IMG/VR virus record: IMGVR_UViG_3300017917_003580
Coordinates: 1-50,660 of that record
Length of the DNA stretch: 50,660 nt
Direction: 5' to 3' (one strand)
Source of the DNA: a virus
Within the stretch, counting starts at the first letter, position 1; the number at the start of each line of letters is the position of its first letter. Below are positions 20,549-50,369 of the stretch, in pieces. The notes beneath the pieces are model-generated. The model was not told the origin of the DNA, did not search any database, and worked only from the letters and a program-made list of their open reading frames with translations. The translations under genes and the position numbers were made by a program.

Positions 20549-20562
20549 ATAAATATAAATAT
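20549..20562 (-). promoter_or_regulatory. Tandem ATATTTAT elements before the HNH gene
   Basis: The minus strand reads GATATTTATATTTATAAGAA, with two overlapping copies six bases apart (20555-20562 and 20549-20556). The second ends 11 bases before the ATG at 20537, and the first overlaps the TGA of the nucleotidyltransferase-ligase gene. Confidence 0.5.
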
Positions 20563-22586
20563 CACCGTGCGTACTTTAATACCCCTAGTATCTGATTAAC
20601 GGGAGCAAATGCGCCTGTTAACTTGTATGTATTGCCACCATATACAAATACTACACCCTCCGATGGTACAATTGCTTCAAATCCTCCTAACCGCTGTATA
20701 CGCTTTAATTCATGTTCTAATTTTTTAATAGTATTTATATCTTGAGTCGTTTCTAATTCCCTAATTAAATCTGCTAAGTCTTTTTTAAGTTCTTGCATCG
20801 ATTTTGATGGATTTGCTGCTAAGAAATTTTCTGCATTACGTAATACTACAGCGCCTAATCTTAAAAATATGCTTTCAAACGGTTCCATGTTTTGTTTGTA
20901 ATACGTTTTAAAATCTTTTTTATCAAATTCAGTTACCCATGCAGAAAATTCCGGATTTGTAATTTGTTTTTTAAGTGCTGCAATATTTGCAGATTTATCA
21001 AAGAATGCCCAACGATTAATTAATGCTGTTAAAATTGAATCTGAAATATCATAACCCAATGCTTGTGCTTTTTCTCGTATTACATCTCCCCACCACGCTT
21101 TATGATAATCAGAAACTAAATCCGTATCTTTTAATCCATAACGATCGCGTAATTGATCTACTTCATTAAAAAATGCAGCTTGTTGATCTTCAAAATCTGA
21201 TAATCTACCGATTTTAATTTTTTGCGGTGGAATAAATGAAAATGTTTTTTGTAAATGTGCATTTGCATCTTGTATGATGCTTTGCAATGCGCCGCCTCCG
21301 GTTAAATCTGTTTGTACAACGTTACCTGCTTCATCATATTCAACTAAATTATGGAACTGTAATACTGCAACATCGTACGAAATTACGTTTTTAGTTGCAG
21401 GATAAATAATTTCCATGTTAGCAAATACTCGTCCGTTTTTAAAAATACCGTTTAAAACATTTGCATCTACTCGATTGAATGCTTCTGCTAAATCTTCTGC
21501 TGCATTTCCGAATGCATCTGATATAGGTCCGCGTCCTCCAAACTTATCTTGAATTTCTTGTACAGTCATCGGATTAATTACAGTACCTTTATTTCTAGCA
21601 AAACCAATTTGTCCATTTTTATATGTTACTTGAATATTTTGACCATCGGTTTTTTCTGTTACTGCAGCTTCTATATCTAAACGTCCACCTAATGCACGTG
21701 CAATTATTTCTTTAACATCTCCAAATGAAAGTGCATAGTCATCATACGGATGTGCCATATGTCCTGCAGCGCCACCTTCTTTAATCATTTGAATTGCTTC
21801 AGTTAGTGGAACTCCAACTACGGTTTTTTCAAATTCTTTAAAATCATATACAAATGGACGTCCAAAACTATTATGTAGAAACTTTTTAAGTTTTGCAATT
21901 TTTTGTTTGTGTTTTTCTGCTGTTTTTGGATCCATATATCCTTCAACTACATTTTTAACATCTTCTTGCAAAACATGTTGCCACCATTTTTTTGAAAATA
22001 ATGTTTCTTGTACACCCTTTAATATTTGCCATACATTTTTAATTTCAGAATCATTTTGTGCTGGATATGCTTGTTTAAACGCATCATAATCGCCATTTGC
22101 TAATGCAGCACGTACTGTAGTTGCTGAAATGGGTTGTCCGTTTTTATCAGTCAGTGGATCAATATCTAAATTTAATTCCATTGCATCTACTCCTGCAGGA
22201 ATTTTACGTCCTTTTTTATCTCCAATTGTTTTGTATTTATCTACGTTAGGAACAAAATCTTTTGCACGTACGTAATCATCTCCTTTCGTTGATGCTGCCA
22301 TGGCAAAACGACCTGTTGCATCTTGCGGTAATGCAAATAGATATTCATATGCAGCCATGATAGGAGAATTGAATTCTGTTGGTTGTATTTCAATGTTTGG
22401 ATTTCGATTAATTAAATTGAATATTTCAATTGTTTTTTCTCTAGTAATTCCATCACGGTCTTTAGGTCCAATTAAAAGTATTACCTTATCAGTATCAGGG
22501 TGTTGTGCATAACGTTCTGCAAGTGCTAAATGTGCTCCCGTTAATGGTTTAAATCCTCCAGGAAATAACGTTGTTATTTTGTTCAT
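20562..22586 (-). CDS. Nucleotidyltransferase fused to an RNA/DNA-ligase-like domain
   Basis: The 674-residue protein joins two nucleotide-transfer modules. Residues 1-165 form a cytidylyltransferase/NMNAT-like Rossmann domain with FPGGFKPLTGAHLALAE (HxGH-type motif in the form TGAH) and ISATTVRAAL at 153-162. Residues about 270-674 carry covalent nucleotidyltransferase (ligase/capping enzyme) motifs. Motif I is EKTDG at 311-315 (Lys312 nucleophile), a motif III-like FANMEIIYP is at 388-396, motif IV SEGVVF at 642-647 and motif V YKLTG at 654-658. A helical insert of about 190 residues separates motifs III and IV. The known families make or transfer nucleotides; the substrate here is unknown. 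Plausible roles are RNA or DNA end repair, capping, or NAD-linked chemistry. Its neighbours are late genes. Confidence 0.75.
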   Translation of the reverse strand: MNKITTLFPGGFKPLTGAHLALAERYAQHPDTDKVILLIGPKDRDGITREKTIEIFNLINRNPNIEIQPTEFNSPIMAAYEYLFALPQDATGRFAMAASTKGDDYVRAKDFVPNVDKYKTIGDKKGRKIPAGVDAMELNLDIDPLTDKNGQPISATTVRAALANGDYDAFKQAYPAQNDSEIKNVWQILKGVQETLFSKKWWQHVLQEDVKNVVEGYMDPKTAEKHKQKIAKLKKFLHNSFGRPFVYDFKEFEKTVVGVPLTEAIQMIKEGGAAGHMAHPYDDYALSFGDVKEIIARALGGRLDIEAAVTEKTDGQNIQVTYKNGQIGFARNKGTVINPMTVQEIQDKFGGRGPISDAFGNAAEDLAEAFNRVDANVLNGIFKNGRVFANMEIIYPATKNVISYDVAVLQFHNLVEYDEAGNVVQTDLTGGGALQSIIQDANAHLQKTFSFIPPQKIKIGRLSDFEDQQAAFFNEVDQLRDRYGLKDTDLVSDYHKAWWGDVIREKAQALGYDISDSILTALINRWAFFDKSANIAALKKQITNPEFSAWVTEFDKKDFKTYYKQNMEPFESIFLRLGAVVLRNAENFLAANPSKSMQELKKDLADLIRELETTQDINTIKKLEHELKRIQRLGGFEAIVPSEGVVFVYGGNTYKLTGAFAPVNQILGVLKYAR

Positions 22587-22602: not shown

Positions 22603-22610
22603 ATAAATAT
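22603..22610 (-). promoter_or_regulatory. ATATTTAT-type candidate late promoter before the nucleotidyltransferase-ligase
   Basis: The minus strand reads ATATTTATATAAAAAGAAAT, 16 bases before the ATG at 22586, and its first base overlaps the upstream stop codon. Confidence 0.5.
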
Positions 22611-25327
22611 TATGATTCTATAATTGGTGTTGTCGGCGAAGTTATTGTACTCCCTACCGATCTACTAGTACGCCAAACGAAATTTTTCATTTTAAGTGTA
22701 CCAGTGGGAGCTGTTGATAATGTGTATACAACTAAATAAATTTGTACATACATTCCTTGACGATTAGCAAAATTTGTTTTTCCTGTTCCACCGACGACTG
22801 TTTCTTTTGTTTCTGCTCCTGATTCGATTGTATTAGATGCTACTGAATTTCCTAGTGTTTGTAATCCCCCTAACTCGGCAACATCTTGAAATGTGCCGTA
22901 ATAACTACTACCTACCGTAGGACCTAAACTAGCCGATGCAATAAATGTTTGAAATCTAATAGTTACAGGATCAGTAAGACTATCATTATCTATTTCATAT
23001 GTATATGAAACTTGACATCTAGTTTCCCCTGGTAAAATAAATGTTTGAAATACCGAAGCTGTCTGTGCGGTAGCTAAACTAGTTATTGATGCTAAGTTAA
23101 ATGTAACTTCAGATTGATCAAAATATACAATCCGTCCTACATTAACCCCATCAACAAATTCTGAATTCGAATCAAATAATGTATTACCATTATTAATTGC
23201 TATAAATGAAGATGCAGTTACATCGCCGTCAGCTGTTAAATAAAATCCACTTGATGAAATTTCTAAATTACCATTGCTTCCGGAAATATATTGAGAATTA
23301 GGATCGCCAAAGAAAAATGTTTCAGTATGTACATCTAATTCCGATGGATTAGTTGCATATCTAAAATAATTATTTGCATCGCCGTATAATTCTAAACCAA
23401 CGCCACTATATGGAACTCCACCTTTAGTTCCTTGCGAACCTGATAATGCTGATCCGGACCAAATTAAAAAACCAGGAAATCCGGCATCAAATCCTTCATA
23501 TCCTAATGATCTAACAAAACCAGTATCTTTATATCCACTGATTGCAACACCTGATTCTAATGAATCTGCAACATACAGTGAACCGGTAAGCATTGAATAA
23601 TCGCCATCAATGTATCTATTACCACCTTGCCAAGATTTATCATACAAATAAGATATTTGTTTGCTAATAACACCATCCACATTGTAATATTCTACTTTAA
23701 AAGATATTTGATTGTTTGCTTTATGTGGTGTATTGATAAGTGATCTAATTCTAGTATAATTAGGAGAATATCCTGCATCATTATCTGTAGTTGTACGAAC
23801 ATCTGCAATTTGCCAGGTACCTGATTCTACTACAAATAACAAGGCACCAGTTCCATCATAATTGCTTTCAAAATTAAATACTACGTCATCAAAACGCTGT
23901 GAATCTGAAGTTACTTCTAACTCTCCGATGCGTTTACCTAATATTCTTGGTAGTTCTTGATTAAAATAGTCTGTTGGATCAAATGCTACAGCACTTCCAG
24001 AAATATATACTGATATTCGAGGATTAACACCTGTTGTATCTCGCGTTCCTAATGCATCTATAGAAACTTTATATGATGATGTTGCAATAAATACTCCATT
24101 ATATGCAGATTTATTTTGCACTACTAAAACAGCATTTTGTGCAGAAATATCCGTTACACTTGTAATGTTCATTGCATTATTTAAAGATGCAGTTGACCAA
24201 GTAAGTGTTGGAGCTGTTCCGGTGTTTTTACCCGTATATGTAAATCCTTCCCAATACGTATCGATAATGCTTTGAGATGTAAATGCACCTATACTCTGAT
24301 CAGGAAATAAAGATGCTGTGCTAGTTACGAATATTTCTGTTTCTTCAAGTTCAACATCATTAACTAATTCCCAAGTACCAACCGTACCTTTATTGTTTGT
24401 ATAAACTTTTATTCGAGATACATCGCCAGTTGCGGGTTCTAATCCTTTAATTTGTAGAAGAGCAAATGATTGTGAATTTTCTGTTGCAACATACGTAGGT
24501 GTTTGTTCATATGTTAATGAAAATGAAGAAGCAGCAAATTCCGCGTATACGTGAGGAAAAATGCTTTGGCTACTATAAACCGTATATTCTTCATCTAATA
24601 GAATCGTAGTGTCAGATAATACTTTTTTTATTGTACTTACGTAAGGAGAGGAAACCACCGGATAATTAGGAGTAGGAGAAGGATTTTGTGGAGTAGCAAC
24701 AGTTATTGTTCCCGTTTTCATATCTCCGGTGAATTTACCTCCTACAAGTTCAATTGCAGGTGCACCATTAAGTGTAAATAATCGTACTGTTCCAGTTGAA
24801 TATGTTGGAAACTGTTGACTACCAGAATATATTCGATCTAATTGTACGCCTACTTGTTCTGATACCATCACTTCTGGTAATTTAGAAAATATGATTTCGG
24901 ATACGTTTGATACATTTGGATTAACAGGTACCGTTCTTTTCCATTTAACATTTGGACGACCTTGCCATTCTTGTGGTACGGATTGACCTTGTATAGTTTG
25001 TGCTTCAGCTAAAAGTGTTATGCTACAATCGCCAGGAGATGTTTCTGAATAAATATAAATTGCAATTACACGAGACTTATCTTCATCAATGTAATCTACA
25101 ACTTCGGAATAAATTGGATCACCATTATAATCTAATACTTCGATATTTAATACTCCGCCTACACGTAAATTAGTAGGATGACCTCGAAGTTTAAATAGAT
25201 TTTTACCAGCTGTTAAACGTGTAGGAAATTCAGTTATTTGAAAATAGTCCGGTGAGGTTAATGATGTATCTTCAAAATAAACCGGAATGAATTCTAAACC
25301 TTTATATACTGCTTCTTTGCGTTTCAT
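22610..25327 (-). CDS. Large virion structural protein, tail-fibre/appendage type
   Basis: I choose the ATG at 25327 (MKRKEAVYKGLEF, 905 residues); the ten codons ahead of it would need a TTG start. The N-terminal 130 residues are beta-rich, with RGHPTNLRVGGVLNIEVLDY and a DYIDEDKSRVIAIYIY segment. The middle is Ser/Thr/Gly-rich with many short strands. Around residues 660-720 there is a fibre-like stretch (NGNLEISSSGFYLTADGD, then SFIAINNGN) typical of phage appendage proteins. The C-terminus contains GSSYYGTFQDVAELGGLQ. No enzymatic residues are seen. It follows the gp47-gp46 gene but has its own candidate late promoter at 25347-25354. Role inferred: long tail fibre segment or whisker. Confidence 0.65.
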   Translation of the reverse strand: MKRKEAVYKGLEFIPVYFEDTSLTSPDYFQITEFPTRLTAGKNLFKLRGHPTNLRVGGVLNIEVLDYNGDPIYSEVVDYIDEDKSRVIAIYIYSETSPGDCSITLLAEAQTIQGQSVPQEWQGRPNVKWKRTVPVNPNVSNVSEIIFSKLPEVMVSEQVGVQLDRIYSGSQQFPTYSTGTVRLFTLNGAPAIELVGGKFTGDMKTGTITVATPQNPSPTPNYPVVSSPYVSTIKKVLSDTTILLDEEYTVYSSQSIFPHVYAEFAASSFSLTYEQTPTYVATENSQSFALLQIKGLEPATGDVSRIKVYTNNKGTVGTWELVNDVELEETEIFVTSTASLFPDQSIGAFTSQSIIDTYWEGFTYTGKNTGTAPTLTWSTASLNNAMNITSVTDISAQNAVLVVQNKSAYNGVFIATSSYKVSIDALGTRDTTGVNPRISVYISGSAVAFDPTDYFNQELPRILGKRIGELEVTSDSQRFDDVVFNFESNYDGTGALLFVVESGTWQIADVRTTTDNDAGYSPNYTRIRSLINTPHKANNQISFKVEYYNVDGVISKQISYLYDKSWQGGNRYIDGDYSMLTGSLYVADSLESGVAISGYKDTGFVRSLGYEGFDAGFPGFLIWSGSALSGSQGTKGGVPYSGVGLELYGDANNYFRYATNPSELDVHTETFFFGDPNSQYISGSNGNLEISSSGFYLTADGDVTASSFIAINNGNTLFDSNSEFVDGVNVGRIVYFDQSEVTFNLASITSLATAQTASVFQTFILPGETRCQVSYTYEIDNDSLTDPVTIRFQTFIASASLGPTVGSSYYGTFQDVAELGGLQTLGNSVASNTIESGAETKETVVGGTGKTNFANRQGMYVQIYLVVYTLSTAPTGTLKMKNFVWRTSRSVGSTITSPTTPIIES

Positions 25328-25346
25328 TGAATTTGATATCTTTATT

Positions 25347-25354
25347 ATAAATAT
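25347..25354 (-). promoter_or_regulatory. ATATTTAT-type candidate late promoter
   Basis: The minus strand reads GATATTTATAATAAAGATAT, overlapping the TGA of the gp47-gp46 fusion and 19 bases before the ATG at 25327. It separates a DNA-metabolism gene from a late structural gene. Confidence 0.5.
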
Positions 25355-28300
25355 CAAACATGATTGATCTTGCTAAATCCTTGTGTCTTGTTTACTTCAA
25401 TTAAATTGTCAACCATATCTCGCATAGAATCAACATGTGATATGATGATTGAAAAATCAAACTTAGTACGGAAATATTCAAACAAATTAACTACGGAAGA
25501 AATATGTTCTGAATCTAAACTTCCCCAACCTTCATCAATAGCAATGAAATTAGGACGTGGTAATGCTGAAACATTGATAAGTGCTATACGAATTGCTAAG
25601 CTAGATATAAAACGTTCCATTCCACTAGTTAATTCTAATGGCCAATAATTATCTTCGTCATATATGATATAACCATTAATATTTTTACCATCCGTATTCA
25701 TTACCATGTTAAATTCAACAATTTGATTGAGTACATTGTTTATTTCAGCTTCTATTTTAGGAAGAGCTTTTGTAATTAATTCGTATGGAATACCATCTCT
25801 TTTAACTGATTCTAAATAATAACCATATGCCTTGTATTCTGTTTCAAGTTGTTGATAACGTTCTAGTTGTTGCATTGCCGTAGCTTTTTGTGTTTTTGCT
25901 ACTTCAATTGCACCATAATTATTTTTTATTTCAGATTGAATTGTTTTGATTTGTTCTGATATTGTAGAAATTTTTTCTTTACATTCATTGATTTGGGTAT
26001 CAATTGTTTTGTTGTGTTTGATTGCCGTTTCATTGTGAAGAAATGATTGTTGACGTTCAATTACAGTTTCTAATTCCGATTCGCGGGTTTGTAATTCACT
26101 TTCTAAAATTTGAAGTTGCAATTCGTTTCGTTCTGATTTTGTTTGTTCATGTGCAACAGTATTTTTTAACTTAGACATTTTTTCTGCTGTATCAAATACT
26201 GGACTTAAATTTTCTAATTGTGTATTTAATTCTTCAATTTCATTTTGTGTTACCTTTAATACATTTCGATCATTATCAATTGTATTTTGGGCTTCGATTG
26301 CATTTTGAACGAATACGTTAGATGTACAGTATTTGCATTGCGGATCATATTGATGTGTTTCAAGATGATTGATTTTTTCTTGTTTTGCATTTACTATCTC
26401 CTGTTGTTTTCTTTGTATTTGTGTAAGTGTATTAACTTGAGTTTGTATTTTAGCATATTGCTTTGTTTGTGTGTCTATTTCTTCAACATTGAATTCAGCT
26501 AACGATTTTTTATGTGCATGTATATCTGCTAATAACTGTTCTAAATCTTGTTCTGCAGTTTCAATATCCGTTTGGATTGATTCGATATGTTCAATTAAAT
26601 CTTGTTCTTGTTGTTTTAATTCTTCATAATTTGGACCATCATATGTAGTCGGTAGTTTAGTTTCAATTAATTCAACAATACGTTCTTGCAATACGTTACG
26701 TTGATCTTGTAACGAGTCTTCTTCATTTTCTAATGCAGTAATTGTATCTTGGTTTGCAGATATAACATTGTCAGAATTAATAATAATTTCAGCAAAATCT
26801 GTTTTTTTATAATCTTTTAAACGACCTGCAGTTTCTTTAATTTCATCTGCCGCAAGTTGATAAAGTTGTTCAAATACCGTAATATCTAAAAACTGTGAAA
26901 GTAAGTCTTTGCGTTCTTTCTGAGACTTTTCAATAAAGTTATTGTTGTCTGCTTGAAGTGAAAATGCCGTTAAGATAAAATCATCATATGTGCCTAAATA
27001 ACGACGAATGTTTTTGTTTGTATCACTTCGTTCTTCGCCATTCAAATTTTCTGCATCAGTATAAAAATCAACATCAACTTTTACGTGTGTTTCTTTCTTT
27101 TTATTTTGAGTACCTCTACGTTCAATTGTATATGTAACGCCATTCATTTCAAATTTAAAAACACCTCGGAACCAAGTTTTTTTATTATTTAAAACTTCAT
27201 TTGCTTTTCCGGTTTTACTACATTTATCAAAAATAGTATAAGTTATTGCATCTAGCAAAGATGACTTACCAGACGTATTTGCCGCAAATAAACCACATAC
27301 ATCTGACAGGTTTTCGAAATTTAACACATTGCCTTCACCATATGAAAACATGTTATCAAATTCAAATGAAATGGGATGCCATGTTGTATGCCGTATAGAT
27401 TCTACTGCAGGAAGTTTTGAATTAATTGTTCTATTAATATGACGTATTGCATCTGTCTCTTCTGGAGTTGCTTGAGGAAAGTGTGTATCAATATAGTCAG
27501 TTAATAATGTATTTTGATATTCAACATCTCGTACATTTCCTATTGCTAAATTAGAAGATGTATTTGCAGAACCATGTTCAATTGTACGTTGAATTGTTAT
27601 GTCTTGTACATTGTACTTTTTACGTATTGTTGCAATAAGCTTCTTCATACCTGCCGCACTAGTACCATTGAATTTGATTCTAACACGTGGTTTATTAGGC
27701 ATTCGGTGCGGATGTGATACAATGGTATCGCCTTGAGTTTCTAATGTAACATAACCATAGTCATTTTCTATTTGCACAAAATCTGCTGTCTTTTTTTGCA
27801 AGTCCCAAACAAGTATTCCATGATCTAATGCTTCTCCATGATTCTGTTGAATCAAACTTCCTGGATATGCAATTGTACAAGCATCATCTAAAAACTGGGC
27901 CGGTTTATGAATATCACCTAACAATGTAATGTCATGCCCTGCAAATAATTCTGTAGTTACATGTTCGTTTGAAATTTGATAACCAATATCCGTTTTAGCA
28001 GTATTAACAGCACCATGATGAAGTGCAATTTTATATGAAGCAGTAAAATCTTTTGCTCGAATATAATCTGCAGGTGTTTTGTCGACTGCCATATGATTCC
28101 ATGTTACACCTCCTAATTCAAATAGTCCATTGTCTTTTATGAAATGAATATTAGGATTACGAATAACATCTAGTACGGGACTAACAGCATCAATACGATG
28201 CATATTGTTTAGATTCATATCATGGTTACCTAAAATAACAATTGTAGGTATTTTAAATCCATTAAAGAAATCAACTAGCATCTGAACTAGTTCTGGCGAC

Positions 28301-28500
28301 ATATCTAATTTGCTATGCACGATATCACCAGTAACAACTGCTATGCTATTACTAGTTGCAGTTTTATTAATGTATTCAAATAGATTTTCAAATACTTGAC
28401 GGTATTCTCCGTGTCTTTTTAATGTTCTAATATGTATATCTGAAACATGATAAATTTTATCTATTTTATCTATTCCAATATCAATTCGTTTTATGTCCAT
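25354..28500 (-). CDS. gp47-gp46: Single-chain Mre11-Rad50 recombination nuclease (gp47-gp46 fusion)
   Basis: The 1048-residue protein carries both halves of the recombination nuclease complex that are separate genes 47 and 46 in T4. Residues 1-360 are Mre11/SbcD-like: DIHI (Asp21, His23), GDIVH at 58-62, GNHD at 91-94, HH at 161-162 and GDIHKP at 195-200 supply the metal ligands. Residues 375-1048 are Rad50/SbcC-like: P-loop LFAANTSGKSS (Lys412), a long coiled coil with zinc hook CKYC at 722-725, signature LTSGMER at 957-963, Walker B FIAIDEG with SLDSEH after it, and the H-loop SH at 1021-1022. No stop or frameshift lies between them. The complex resects DNA ends for recombination-dependent replication. 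The gene overlaps the primase by ten bases. Confidence 0.95.
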   Translation of the reverse strand: MDIKRIDIGIDKIDKIYHVSDIHIRTLKRHGEYRQVFENLFEYINKTATSNSIAVVTGDIVHSKLDMSPELVQMLVDFFNGFKIPTIVILGNHDMNLNNMHRIDAVSPVLDVIRNPNIHFIKDNGLFELGGVTWNHMAVDKTPADYIRAKDFTASYKIALHHGAVNTAKTDIGYQISNEHVTTELFAGHDITLLGDIHKPAQFLDDACTIAYPGSLIQQNHGEALDHGILVWDLQKKTADFVQIENDYGYVTLETQGDTIVSHPHRMPNKPRVRIKFNGTSAAGMKKLIATIRKKYNVQDITIQRTIEHGSANTSSNLAIGNVRDVEYQNTLLTDYIDTHFPQATPEETDAIRHINRTINSKLPAVESIRHTTWHPISFEFDNMFSYGEGNVLNFENLSDVCGLFAANTSGKSSLLDAITYTIFDKCSKTGKANEVLNNKKTWFRGVFKFEMNGVTYTIERRGTQNKKKETHVKVDVDFYTDAENLNGEERSDTNKNIRRYLGTYDDFILTAFSLQADNNNFIEKSQKERKDLLSQFLDITVFEQLYQLAADEIKETAGRLKDYKKTDFAEIIINSDNVISANQDTITALENEEDSLQDQRNVLQERIVELIETKLPTTYDGPNYEELKQQEQDLIEHIESIQTDIETAEQDLEQLLADIHAHKKSLAEFNVEEIDTQTKQYAKIQTQVNTLTQIQRKQQEIVNAKQEKINHLETHQYDPQCKYCTSNVFVQNAIEAQNTIDNDRNVLKVTQNEIEELNTQLENLSPVFDTAEKMSKLKNTVAHEQTKSERNELQLQILESELQTRESELETVIERQQSFLHNETAIKHNKTIDTQINECKEKISTISEQIKTIQSEIKNNYGAIEVAKTQKATAMQQLERYQQLETEYKAYGYYLESVKRDGIPYELITKALPKIEAEINNVLNQIVEFNMVMNTDGKNINGYIIYDEDNYWPLELTSGMERFISSLAIRIALINVSALPRPNFIAIDEGWGSLDSEHISSVVNLFEYFRTKFDFSIIISHVDSMRDMVDNLIEVNKTQGFSKINHV

Positions 28501-29435
28501 AACAATCCCATTTTGAGCTCCATGATGCGCTCAAACGTTAAAATATCTGTATTCTCTATTATTTCTGTAATTCTTTGAAATCCTAATTCTGAAGCATCTT
28601 CACTTTGCAATTCAACGAAATGAACATTAAGGCCCTCAGCCATAAATTTTTCAGCAATCGATAATGCATTTTTTAAAGCATCCGCATCTAAACATATGTA
28701 TATATCTTTAACTCGTTCTTCAATGATTTTCTTTTGCAAAGCACCTTGAATTATTTTTCCAAAAAGTGGTATTGCATTACGTTTAACTGCAATTGCATCA
28801 AATGCTCCTTCACAAAGTACAATTGGCTGTGACCAATTTACGAACATTTCGAATCCAATAATGTCTTTTGAAATTTTTGGATTTTTATGTTTGAATTTAT
28901 CTGACTTATAAAATGCTCTACTTACAAAGTAATTTAATTGACCGTCTCGATCGTAACTAGGAATAATTATTTTTCCTGAATATTCTCCAGATTCGCAATA
29001 TCCAATTCGATACTTTAAAATATCAAAAACCGTAACACCCCTATTAATTAAGTAATACATTGCATTTCGATAATCTGGTGTATTTTTCTTAATCCAAAGT
29101 GGTGCATATTCTGCTGGCAATTGTATTGTTTGATTAATTTTTGTTTCTTTAACTGAAACACGATATTTGCTAGATTCAATTATGCGATTAAGTTGTTCGT
29201 GTCGTTCTTTAGGTAAATTTAATTGTTTAAATAAAGAAGAAATACTTTTACCTTTCTTATCAGATATCCAACAATGCCAAGTATAATTTCCAGAAGCATC
29301 GGGAGTTAATCGAATTTCTAATTTTGGTTTATAGTGTGAAGTAAATGGAGAAAAGAATGATATATTACCACCAGATGTTGGCTTTCCTTTACCTAATACT
29401 GATTCTAATAATTGAAGTAATTTTAGATTCTCCAT
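28491..29435 (-). CDS. gp61: DNA primase, gp61-like, with reduced zinc motif
   Basis: The 314-residue protein is a DnaG-type primase with a TOPRIM catalytic core: the Glu of VLCEGAFDA (Glu209) and the DxD of ICLDADA (Asp250, Asp252). RNA primers from this enzyme start lagging-strand synthesis with the gp41 helicase. The N-terminal zinc-ribbon is degraded. Where relatives have CPFC-x2-H-x-KPKLEI and a CWxC pair, this protein has FSPFTSHYKPKLEI and CWIS, leaving one His and one Cys in place. The length is like T4 gp61 (342). It overlaps the gp47-gp46 gene, forming a two-gene replication/recombination unit fed from the repeat-bearing gap at 29436-29625. Confidence 0.88.
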   Translation of the reverse strand: MENLKLLQLLESVLGKGKPTSGGNISFFSPFTSHYKPKLEIRLTPDASGNYTWHCWISDKKGKSISSLFKQLNLPKERHEQLNRIIESSKYRVSVKETKINQTIQLPAEYAPLWIKKNTPDYRNAMYYLINRGVTVFDILKYRIGYCESGEYSGKIIIPSYDRDGQLNYFVSRAFYKSDKFKHKNPKISKDIIGFEMFVNWSQPIVLCEGAFDAIAVKRNAIPLFGKIIQGALQKKIIEERVKDIYICLDADALKNALSIAEKFMAEGLNVHFVELQSEDASELGFQRITEIIENTDILTFERIMELKMGLLWT

Positions 29436-29625: not shown

Positions 29626-30108
29626 TTATCCAAAGAAACGTTTTGTATTTATCGGCATTTCACCCGATTTAAGGCATTCTTCAAGCCATTCTGCAGGAAT
29701 ATCCTTTTTTGCAACATGACGTATACCTAATTTTAAAGCATATTCTCCATATGTAGTTTTACTTGTTTTTGATAAACGTTGATTAGGATTTTGAAATACC
29801 ATTCGAATGTCTATTCCAGGATTTGATGCTAGAACATGTTTCATTTTTGTACGATCTGCTGTAGTCCACCGTCCTTTTGTTTCAACAAACATTAATTGGC
29901 CATTACGTTTAGTAAATACGAAGTCAGGTGTATATTTAGCTTTACGCTCAGGTACTATATAATTTATGGTTTCTGTTTCGTATTTCAAATCATATGGAGT
30001 AGATTTTATCGTTTCTGCAACAACATGTTCTAATCCAGATTTATAACCATGTTTAAGTGCTGCTGCTCGTTTAGAGTTTCCGGAAGAGTGAAAATGATTT
30101 TTTCGCAT
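29626..30108 (-). CDS. T7-type endonuclease I (Holliday junction resolvase)
   Basis: The 160-residue protein is a close match in pattern to phage T7 gp3. It has KSGLEHVVAE (Glu27), KYETETINYIVP with Glu44/46, KYTPDFVF (Asp62), and MFVETKGRW (Glu76, Lys78), then MVFQNPNQRLSKTSKTTYGEYA and DIPAEWLEE. The Glu/Glu/Asp/Glu-Lys set is the catalytic core of this restriction-like nuclease, which dimerises to cut four-way junctions and mismatches. T7 gp3 has 149 residues, so the length is normal. T4 itself uses the unrelated endonuclease VII (gp49) for this job. It lies directly upstream of the primase and Mre11-Rad50 genes, consistent with a DNA-processing group. Confidence 0.93.
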   Translation of the reverse strand: MRKNHFHSSGNSKRAAALKHGYKSGLEHVVAETIKSTPYDLKYETETINYIVPERKAKYTPDFVFTKRNGQLMFVETKGRWTTADRTKMKHVLASNPGIDIRMVFQNPNQRLSKTSKTTYGEYALKLGIRHVAKKDIPAEWLEECLKSGEMPINTKRFFG

Positions 30109-49343: not shown

Positions 49344-50369
49344 CTATAAAATTATAGCATTATTTTCTTGACAACATGTAACTCCAATTTGCAATAAAGC
49401 ATGCTCCTTGGCCTTAGCCTCAACCTCAATGTCTAAAGATGAAACACCGTATGTATTAGGTAGCTGTGTAATAAAGTCGGCATGAGCTTGCTCTTTGATC
49501 TTGGTAAACTCCTTGTATTGTTTGTGGAAGGTAGGCCATTGTGCAATATTTTCTAATGAAATACCATGGTGGTCAAACATACGTTCAATAAGAATCTGAT
49601 TCTCGCGTCGACGTGACTCGGAGTAATGTGTGCATTGCGTAGCATCGTTAACAGCCCAAGTGTCACGAGCCATAAAGAATGCTTCTTGTTCGCTGATGTC
49701 ACCTGTATTGAAAGTGTGATGCCAATAGTCAAACGTAATAGGAATACGTGTTGGAACATGCAAATACTCATACAACTCACGCACCGAATACATGGAAGCC
49801 TTGTCATCATTCTCGACAACTAAACGTGCACGACATGAGTCAGATAAACGCCGATAGTTAAACAACCACCGTGCAACAGTACCGGGCTTGTCATTGTATG
49901 TAGCACCGATGTGAATATTGATAAGATTGTCAAAGGATGGTGCAAAGCCCATAAGGTCAAACAATTCAGAATGTCGTTCTAAACTAACAATGGAGTTATC
50001 AACAACCACATCATCAGGACTACCTAGGATATGAAATGGACCAGGATGCGTTGTAAGACGATGACCATGCTGTTTTGCATAGTCACCTGCTGCACGAAGA
50101 TGCTGCGTAATCTCATCAATGCCGGGCAAGTCATGCAACTCATAATGATTCCAACGTGGAAATAATTCTGAACCAATACGGAATAGACGTATACCATGTT
50201 GCTCGTTCCATTGCAGAATAGTTAATAAATCACGAGCATTGGCAAGTGCAATGTCAGAAGCCAATTGTAAACCACCAAGACGGAACTTGCGGTCAATCAT
50301 TGCACGACCGGTACGGATGCCGGCGTTAGAAAGCTGTGTATTGATACAGCAATAACCAAAACGTATCAT
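49344..50369 (-). CDS. uvdE: UV damage endonuclease UvdE-like
   Basis: The 341-residue protein is a UvdE-type TIM-barrel nuclease that nicks 5' of UV photoproducts. Metal and active-site motifs are in order: THPGPFHIL (His108), NIHIGATYND (His153), VENDDK (Glu186), FDYWHH (Asp214, His217), THYSES (His247), and an acidic DIEVEAKAKEHAL near the end. The G+C content and codon choice (CGT/CGC Arg, GTC/GCA mixture) look higher in G+C than the neighbours, suggesting recent acquisition. T4 uses DenV for pyrimidine dimers, a different family. No late motif is visible before the ATG, and the upstream gap with TATAAT-like sequence may hold an early promoter. Confidence 0.9.
   Translation of the reverse strand: MIRFGYCCINTQLSNAGIRTGRAMIDRKFRLGGLQLASDIALANARDLLTILQWNEQHGIRLFRIGSELFPRWNHYELHDLPGIDEITQHLRAAGDYAKQHGHRLTTHPGPFHILGSPDDVVVDNSIVSLERHSELFDLMGFAPSFDNLINIHIGATYNDKPGTVARWLFNYRRLSDSCRARLVVENDDKASMYSVRELYEYLHVPTRIPITFDYWHHTFNTGDISEQEAFFMARDTWAVNDATQCTHYSESRRRENQILIERMFDHHGISLENIAQWPTFHKQYKEFTKIKEQAHADFITQLPNTYGVSSLDIEVEAKAKEHALLQIGVTCCQENNAIIL

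Follow-up and report, generated by a model that had tools for sequence, protein, structure and literature searches.

The window (the whole stretch of viral DNA that was analysed) carries what we consider, at a probability of roughly 0.88, to be the gene of a large tailed phage for an authentic one-chain Mre11-Rad50 (SbcDC), the phage counterpart of the Mimivirus R555-type fusion; we propose an end-processing mechanism for it. Mre11-Rad50 is a universal nuclease for the repair of DNA breaks. The protein is encoded on the minus strand at positions 25354-28500 by an open reading frame (ORF) of 1048 codons that starts with ATG and contains no internal stop. Its Mre11-like domain is N-terminal and its Rad50-like domain C-terminal, which corresponds to the architecture described by Yoshida et al. 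2011. By sequence and structure prediction, the chain has a full nuclease followed by a helix-loop-helix and a linker of 11 residues, then an ABC ATPase head, likewise complete, with coiled coil and zinc hook, located as follows:

25354-28500, minus strand: fused Mre11-Rad50 (SbcD-SbcC) ORF, 1048 aa (ORF, motifs, Pfam, PHROG)
27796-28500, minus strand: Mre11 phosphodiesterase domain, residues 1-235 (PF00149, profile match to SbcD/Mre11 structures, conservation)
27907-27918, minus strand: motif V GDIH, with Asp196 for the canonical His in 62/62 aligned relatives (profile alignment)
27586-27795, minus strand: putative Mre11 capping-type domain, residues 236-305 (AlphaFold2 secondary structure, assigned by analogy with Mre11)
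27418-27525, minus strand: two helices in the place of the Rad50-binding helix-loop-helix of Mre11, residues 326-361 (AlphaFold2, dN/dS)
27385-27417, minus strand: 11-residue linker between Mre11 and Rad50, residues 362-372 (AlphaFold2; length compatible with PMC3175470)
27259-27285, minus strand: Walker A/P-loop AANTSGKSS, residues 406-414 (motif and alignment)
26806-27384, minus strand: Rad50 N-terminal ATPase lobe, residues 373-565, with Q-loop Q516 (AAA_23, alignment, AlphaFold2)
25804-26877, minus strand: antiparallel coiled coil, residues 542-899 (helical in AlphaFold2; fastest-evolving region)
26326-26337, minus strand: zinc hook CKYC, residues 722-725 (C722 and C725 invariant, n=62)
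25357-25803, minus strand: Rad50 C-terminal lobe, residues 900-1048 (phmmer to Rad50 structures, AlphaFold2)
25615-25632, minus strand: ABC signature LTSGME, residues 957-962 (S959, G960 and E962 invariant)
25513-25548, minus strand: Walker B and D-loop FIAIDEGWGSLD, residues 985-996 (motif and alignment)

Both halves were recognised by profile searches. The Mre11 half matched Pfam Metallophos (PF00149, calcineurin-type phosphoesterase) over residues 15-200 (E 2.6e-11), and the motifs DIH (21-23), GDIVH (58-62), GNHD (91-94), HHG (161-163) and GDIH (195-198) all lie within residues 1-235. The Rad50 half matched Pfam AAA_23 over residues 382-654 (E 2.2e-10) and PHROG 77 (SbcC-like) over residues 369-1046 (E 2.7e-57). 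When phmmer was run against the PDB, Rad50 and SbcC structures were matched, as was SbcD for the N-terminus of the fusion, while the family profile matched E. coli SbcC (E 4.7e-33) and T. maritima SbcD/Mre11 (about 2e-15). The Rad50/SbcC feature set is complete, with Walker A, Q-loop, coiled coil with CxxC hook, signature Ser, Walker B, D-loop and His switch. An earlier note on this DNA had described a single 1048-residue reading frame with ABC motifs and a CxxC hook; the frame was borne out, with no stop inside and with Pfam and PHROG domains in both halves, and the motifs are indeed present (AANTSGKSS at 406-414, CKYC at 722-725, LTSGMER at 957-963, and IDEGWGSLD).

Genomic context and proposed mechanism

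The fusion is the last in the gene order resolvase, primase, fusion, and its start lies inside the end of the primase gene:

28491-29435, minus strand: DnaG-type primase (PHROG 47, E 5e-27), overlapping the fusion start by 10 nt
29626-30108, minus strand: T7 endonuclease I-type Holliday junction resolvase (PF05367, E 4.7e-33; PHROG 945)

A primase also lies upstream of the fusion in the related loci L085, L086 and L083 and in Microcystis phage Mel-JY01, and L085 has a resolvase-like ORF too. The cassettes of L085 (Nitrosopelagicus MAG) and L086 (Chloroflexi MAG) are phage-like, and these are probably viral contigs that were binned into cellular MAGs. The window carries the tailed-phage set of head, portal, terminase and baseplate genes. 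Of 12 long contigs from relatives, 8 carry RecA, a count that comes from the relatives, the window being a 50.7 kb fragment. On the same 12 contigs, which as viral contigs are fragments, there is one fused ORF, and neither SbcC nor SbcD turned up as a separate full-length protein. Further minus-strand ORFs of the window include one of 915 aa (22610-25357) that overlaps the fusion end by 4 nt and had no match in Pfam, PHROGs or NCBIfam, one of 674 aa (20562-22586) with a weak nucleotidyltransferase (NMN adenylyltransferase-like) N-terminus and a weak RNA ligase match, and a UV-damage endonuclease UvsE/UvdE (49344-50369; TIGR00629, E 4e-56, over the cut-off; PF03851).

By analogy with gp46/47 of T4, the most likely role of the fusion is end processing for recombination-dependent replication. 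We consider it unlikely that its main role is host-DNA degradation or counter-defence instead of replication: T4 gp46/47 are annotated as needed for recombination and host-DNA degradation, but the neighbouring primase and resolvase, and RecA in relatives, argue for a part in recombination and replication. The one role does not rule out the other.

An AlphaFold2 model based on a 62-sequence alignment reached a mean pLDDT of 83.5 and a pTM of 0.45, at which the mutual placement of the domains is not reliable. The model comprises the nuclease core, the capping region, a low-confidence loop (307-318), two helices (326-340 and 346-361), the 11-residue linker (362-372) and a first Rad50 strand from residue 373. 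Fusion had previously been judged compatible with the Mre11-Rad50 complex, and 9-12 linker residues were calculated to bridge the two proteins in the T. maritima complex (PMC3175470); the modelled linker and helices fit this expectation. Foldseek matched Mre11-Rad50 and SbcCD heads in the PDB. In a viral library, full-length matches were obtained with Tupanvirus, Harvfovirus, Catovirus, Tetraselmis virus and phages pT24 and PTm1, the fusions of the first three being the top full-length structural matches.

In the proposed end-processing mechanism, two chains would pair by ATP-mediated contact of their Rad50 heads and by contact of their Mre11 domains, so that a single gene product builds the usual M2R2 head. 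Opening of the clamp by ATP hydrolysis would give the nuclease access to DNA ends or hairpins, and the resulting 3' strands would be passed to the phage RecA for recombination-dependent replication, as with T4 gp46/gp47. The fusion would fix a 1:1 stoichiometry and pin the helix-loop-helix beside the base of the Rad50 coiled coil. The earlier note had the fusion couple the ATPase to the nuclease in cis, but in a dimer the nuclease of one chain could pair with the ATPase of the other. Predicted activities of the fusion are ATP hydrolysis, ATP-dependent dimerisation and Mn2+-dependent exo-/endonuclease activity.

Conservation of the nuclease and ATPase motifs

Conservation was counted over an alignment of 62 diverse relatives. 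Invariant in 62/62 were D21, D59, N92, H93, H162, D196 and H198 in the Mre11 half, and N408, G411, K412, C722, C725, S959, G960, E962, D989, E990 and H1022 in the Rad50 half; residue 413 was Ser or Thr throughout, and GK[ST] of Walker A is intact. The earlier claim that every metal ligand is in place held for the canonical ligands D21, H23, D59, N92, H162 and H198 but not for motif V, which in the profile alignment reads LGDIH (Asp196) here versus LGHIH in solved Mre11/SbcD structures. Because Asp occurs in all 62 aligned relatives, the alignment marks Asp196 as a conserved substitution and not a loss. The separate SbcD proteins of phages and E. coli that were checked have GHxH in motif V. Residue 23 is His in 55 of the 62 relatives, the other 7 having Gln, and, given Asp196 and this Gln, metal preference or activity might differ. 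The motif-I change from His to Gln (DIQ or DFQ) was seen in one clade (L086, L161, L167, L170, L176, L180, L183) and in phage pT24 (L250, 5971-9903).

The P-loop Ala and the LTSGMER signature, which had been singled out as oddities, are both present but clade-typical, with Ala at position 406 in 58/62 (Gly in 4/62) and Met at position 961 in 59/62. In SPO1 gp21.9, which is a phage SbcC without the fusion, the P-loop begins with Asp. The idea of the P-loop Ala as a special adaptation is weakened, as the residue is clade-wide and SPO1 SbcC also varies there.

The P-loop Gly-to-Ala and motif-V His-to-Asp changes, together with the motif-I Gln of some relatives, could be taken to indicate an SMC-like DNA tether or structural protein in which the nuclease or the ATPase is weakened. 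This appears quite improbable, since K412, S413 (as Ser/Thr), S959, D989, E990 and H1022 are conserved over the 62 sequences, as are the nuclease residues D21, D59, N92, H93, H162 and H198, and since the SPO1 SbcC likewise dispenses with the first P-loop Gly. Moreover, Asp is a competent metal ligand. The same motif-V His-to-Asp replacement is found in Mimivirus R555 (PMC3175470).

Relatives of the fusion and its phylogenetic placement

Scanning IMG/VR with the fusion protein returned 335 stretches, every one of them a relative; the top 80 of the 335 had 71-91% identity and were single ORFs except for contig-end truncations and one in-frame stop (L020). Wider scans yielded at least 583 relatives and revealed two further clades: the second centres on a contig assigned to a Chloroflexi MAG, and the third, which is more remote, on the huge phage LR756501. 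A search of relatives for the same fusion had been suggested earlier, and it was found as a single ORF of at least 1000 codons in 223 fetched loci, a few contigs being represented twice in this count. A plasmid search gave partial, weak matches only. Measured against nine relatives, dN/dS was 0.03-0.11 over the junction (helix-loop-helix and linker), about as strict as in the ATPase lobes, vs 0.18-0.49 in the coiled coil; the junction is under strong purifying selection.

Because more than 200 relatives have the single ORF and the junction is under such selection, these sequence comparisons exclude an assembly artefact for the fusion; T4, SPO1 and E. coli do have the halves as separate genes, but with hundreds of relatives and the cultured phage Mel-JY01 carrying the same single ORF across a conserved junction and linker, there is next to no chance that an artefact or a lost stop codon joined separate genes 47 and 46 in the window contig. 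A frameshift or stop between the halves is likewise very unlikely because more than 200 relatives are intact, and these relatives support the original proposal of a natural single-chain Mre11-Rad50 (SbcDC) with its halves held 1:1. An internal start that would make free Rad50 as well was rejected: codon 384 is the single in-frame ATG in the vicinity of the junction, and it has no Shine-Dalgarno sequence and falls within the Rad50 domain.

The implied novelty of the fusion was not supported, as such proteins have been known since 2011, when they were described in Mimivirus, a Bacillus phage, plasmids, bacteria and eukaryotes (Yoshida, Claverie and Ogata 2011, PMC3175470), Bacillus phage 0305phi8-36 providing the published phage fusion. 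Phage-like homologues were abundant in aquatic metagenomes and viral fractions, and metagenomic homologues adjoined SPO1-type primases and T7-type gp3 endonucleases (PMC3175470), neighbours like those in the window. The fusion is authentic, and aquatic phages carry it very commonly.

With Mimivirus R555 and giant-virus fusions the window protein shares the N-to-C order, the helix-loop-helix with short linker and the Rad50 head with coiled coil, and with R555 also the rarity of a motif-V Asp (PMC3175470), but it is encoded on a tailed-phage contig and has 1048 vs 1351 aa; identity to the Tupanvirus fusion is about 23%. The nearest cultured relative, Mel-JY01, infects Microcystis and has a full-length fusion (WWT39521.1), though its identity is 40% and its annotation says no more than 'AAA domain containing protein'. 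Tenacibaculum phage pT24 (BAV39141.1, 1310 aa) and huge phage LR756501 (about 1199 aa) likewise carry fusions with GDIH and a TSGME signature, but these have the canonical Gly at the first P-loop position and form a deep separate branch. Cobetia phage Carin-5 (XPT09346.1; L254, 2613-5600) encodes a one-chain Mre11-Rad50 of 995 aa near a primase, which, unlike the window protein, has canonical GHIH, GANGAGKS and LSGGQ and is annotated only as SbcC-like. The same domains are divided between two genes in T4 (gp46/gp47), SPO1 (gp21.9/gp21.3) and E. coli (SbcC/SbcD); in SPO1 a primase adjoins SbcC, as here, whereas the SbcD proteins of SPO1 and E. coli have GHxH.

In a Rad50-head tree, the window-type fusions stood apart from T4, SPO1, phage G and E. 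coli, and pT24 and the huge-phage clade formed a deep branch. The Carin-5 fusion fell among unfused SbcC proteins on a long branch, and probably represents a separate fusion event. Because of this tree position and the canonical motifs, the data tentatively suggest, given the long branches, that phages fused the Mre11 and Rad50 genes more than once; repeated fusion had been proposed earlier (PMC3175470).

Fragmentation of the fused gene in relatives

The window gene itself is the unbroken form. In loci L083 (5938-10163) and L159 (2-4025), the fusion protein is broken inside Mre11, and other re-split loci include L269, L272 and L281 (plus strand) and L273, L288, L289 and L290 (minus strand). 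Searching IMG/VR for a DNA pattern encoding GDIHK followed by YLxxGW yielded 35 contigs; in 27 of these (some near-duplicates) the fusion is broken directly after the motif V GDIHK, and the re-split contigs span three divergent clades. The N piece closes with a conserved tail that is part of its coding sequence (YEE[IL]E[VI]DE....YL..GW, e.g. YEEIEVDESDVDEYLKNGWQIK) and the C piece, which comprises Mre11-C and Rad50, starts with a conserved basic head (KKIKL.RKKP, e.g. MSKKIKLFRKKP). On the AlphaFold2 model of the window protein, the break site maps to the loop between strands 191-195 and 210-212.

The gap between the pieces holds a homing-endonuclease-like gene, a decaying remnant or nothing. 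Many loci have an ORF of 248-305 codons for an endonuclease that is Vsr-like or TnsA-like, while 68, 99 and 25 residues of a decayed one are left in L281, L272 and L269 (E 6e-36, 3e-29 and 2e-6), and in L289 and L273 the second ORF begins about 2 and 15 nt past the first stop. The split loci nearest to the window have kept their nuclease and ATPase motifs, and in them the 40 codons past the break are under purifying selection (dN/dS 0.15); the N-piece tail gave a dN/dS of 0.39 over seven loci with few codons.

We somewhat favour the reading that the fused chain has repeatedly been re-fragmented inside the nuclease after GDIHK, with the pieces probably reassembling non-covalently via tail and head into a working Mre11. 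An intron was rejected for L083 and L159 (no Rfam intron match) and for L289 and L273 (insertion far too short, tail conserved as protein), and a split intein was rejected for the tails, in which no Cys/Ser start or HN end was seen. Separately, L273 (11720-13312, minus strand) and also L294 carry a LAGLIDADG intein after or at Mre11 motif III GNHD/C, the L273 gene being split after motif V as well.

Crona et al. reportedly showed in 2011 that mobile-element tails reassemble Aeh1 NrdA. The Aeh1 NrdA tails have no visible match to the Mre11 tails, and the likeness is architectural only. Phage genes split by homing endonucleases with function retained include Aeh1 NrdA and gene 43 of phage 25 (PMC2988022); a literature text search found no report of a homing-endonuclease split of Mre11 or SbcD. 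The probable re-splitting of relatives by selfish endonuclease genes is more surprising than the fusion itself.

For the abundant aquatic 'R555-like' fusion genes of 2011, these findings firmly establish the genome setting in a phage, with primase and resolvase as neighbours and RecA in relatives, and supply hundreds of intact fusion sequences. With about 1050 residues in one chain and a fixed stoichiometry, such an Mre11-Rad50 would make a handy model for structure and mechanism, and the re-split relatives are a natural experiment in how a conserved nuclease may survive the invasion of selfish genes beside its active-site motif.
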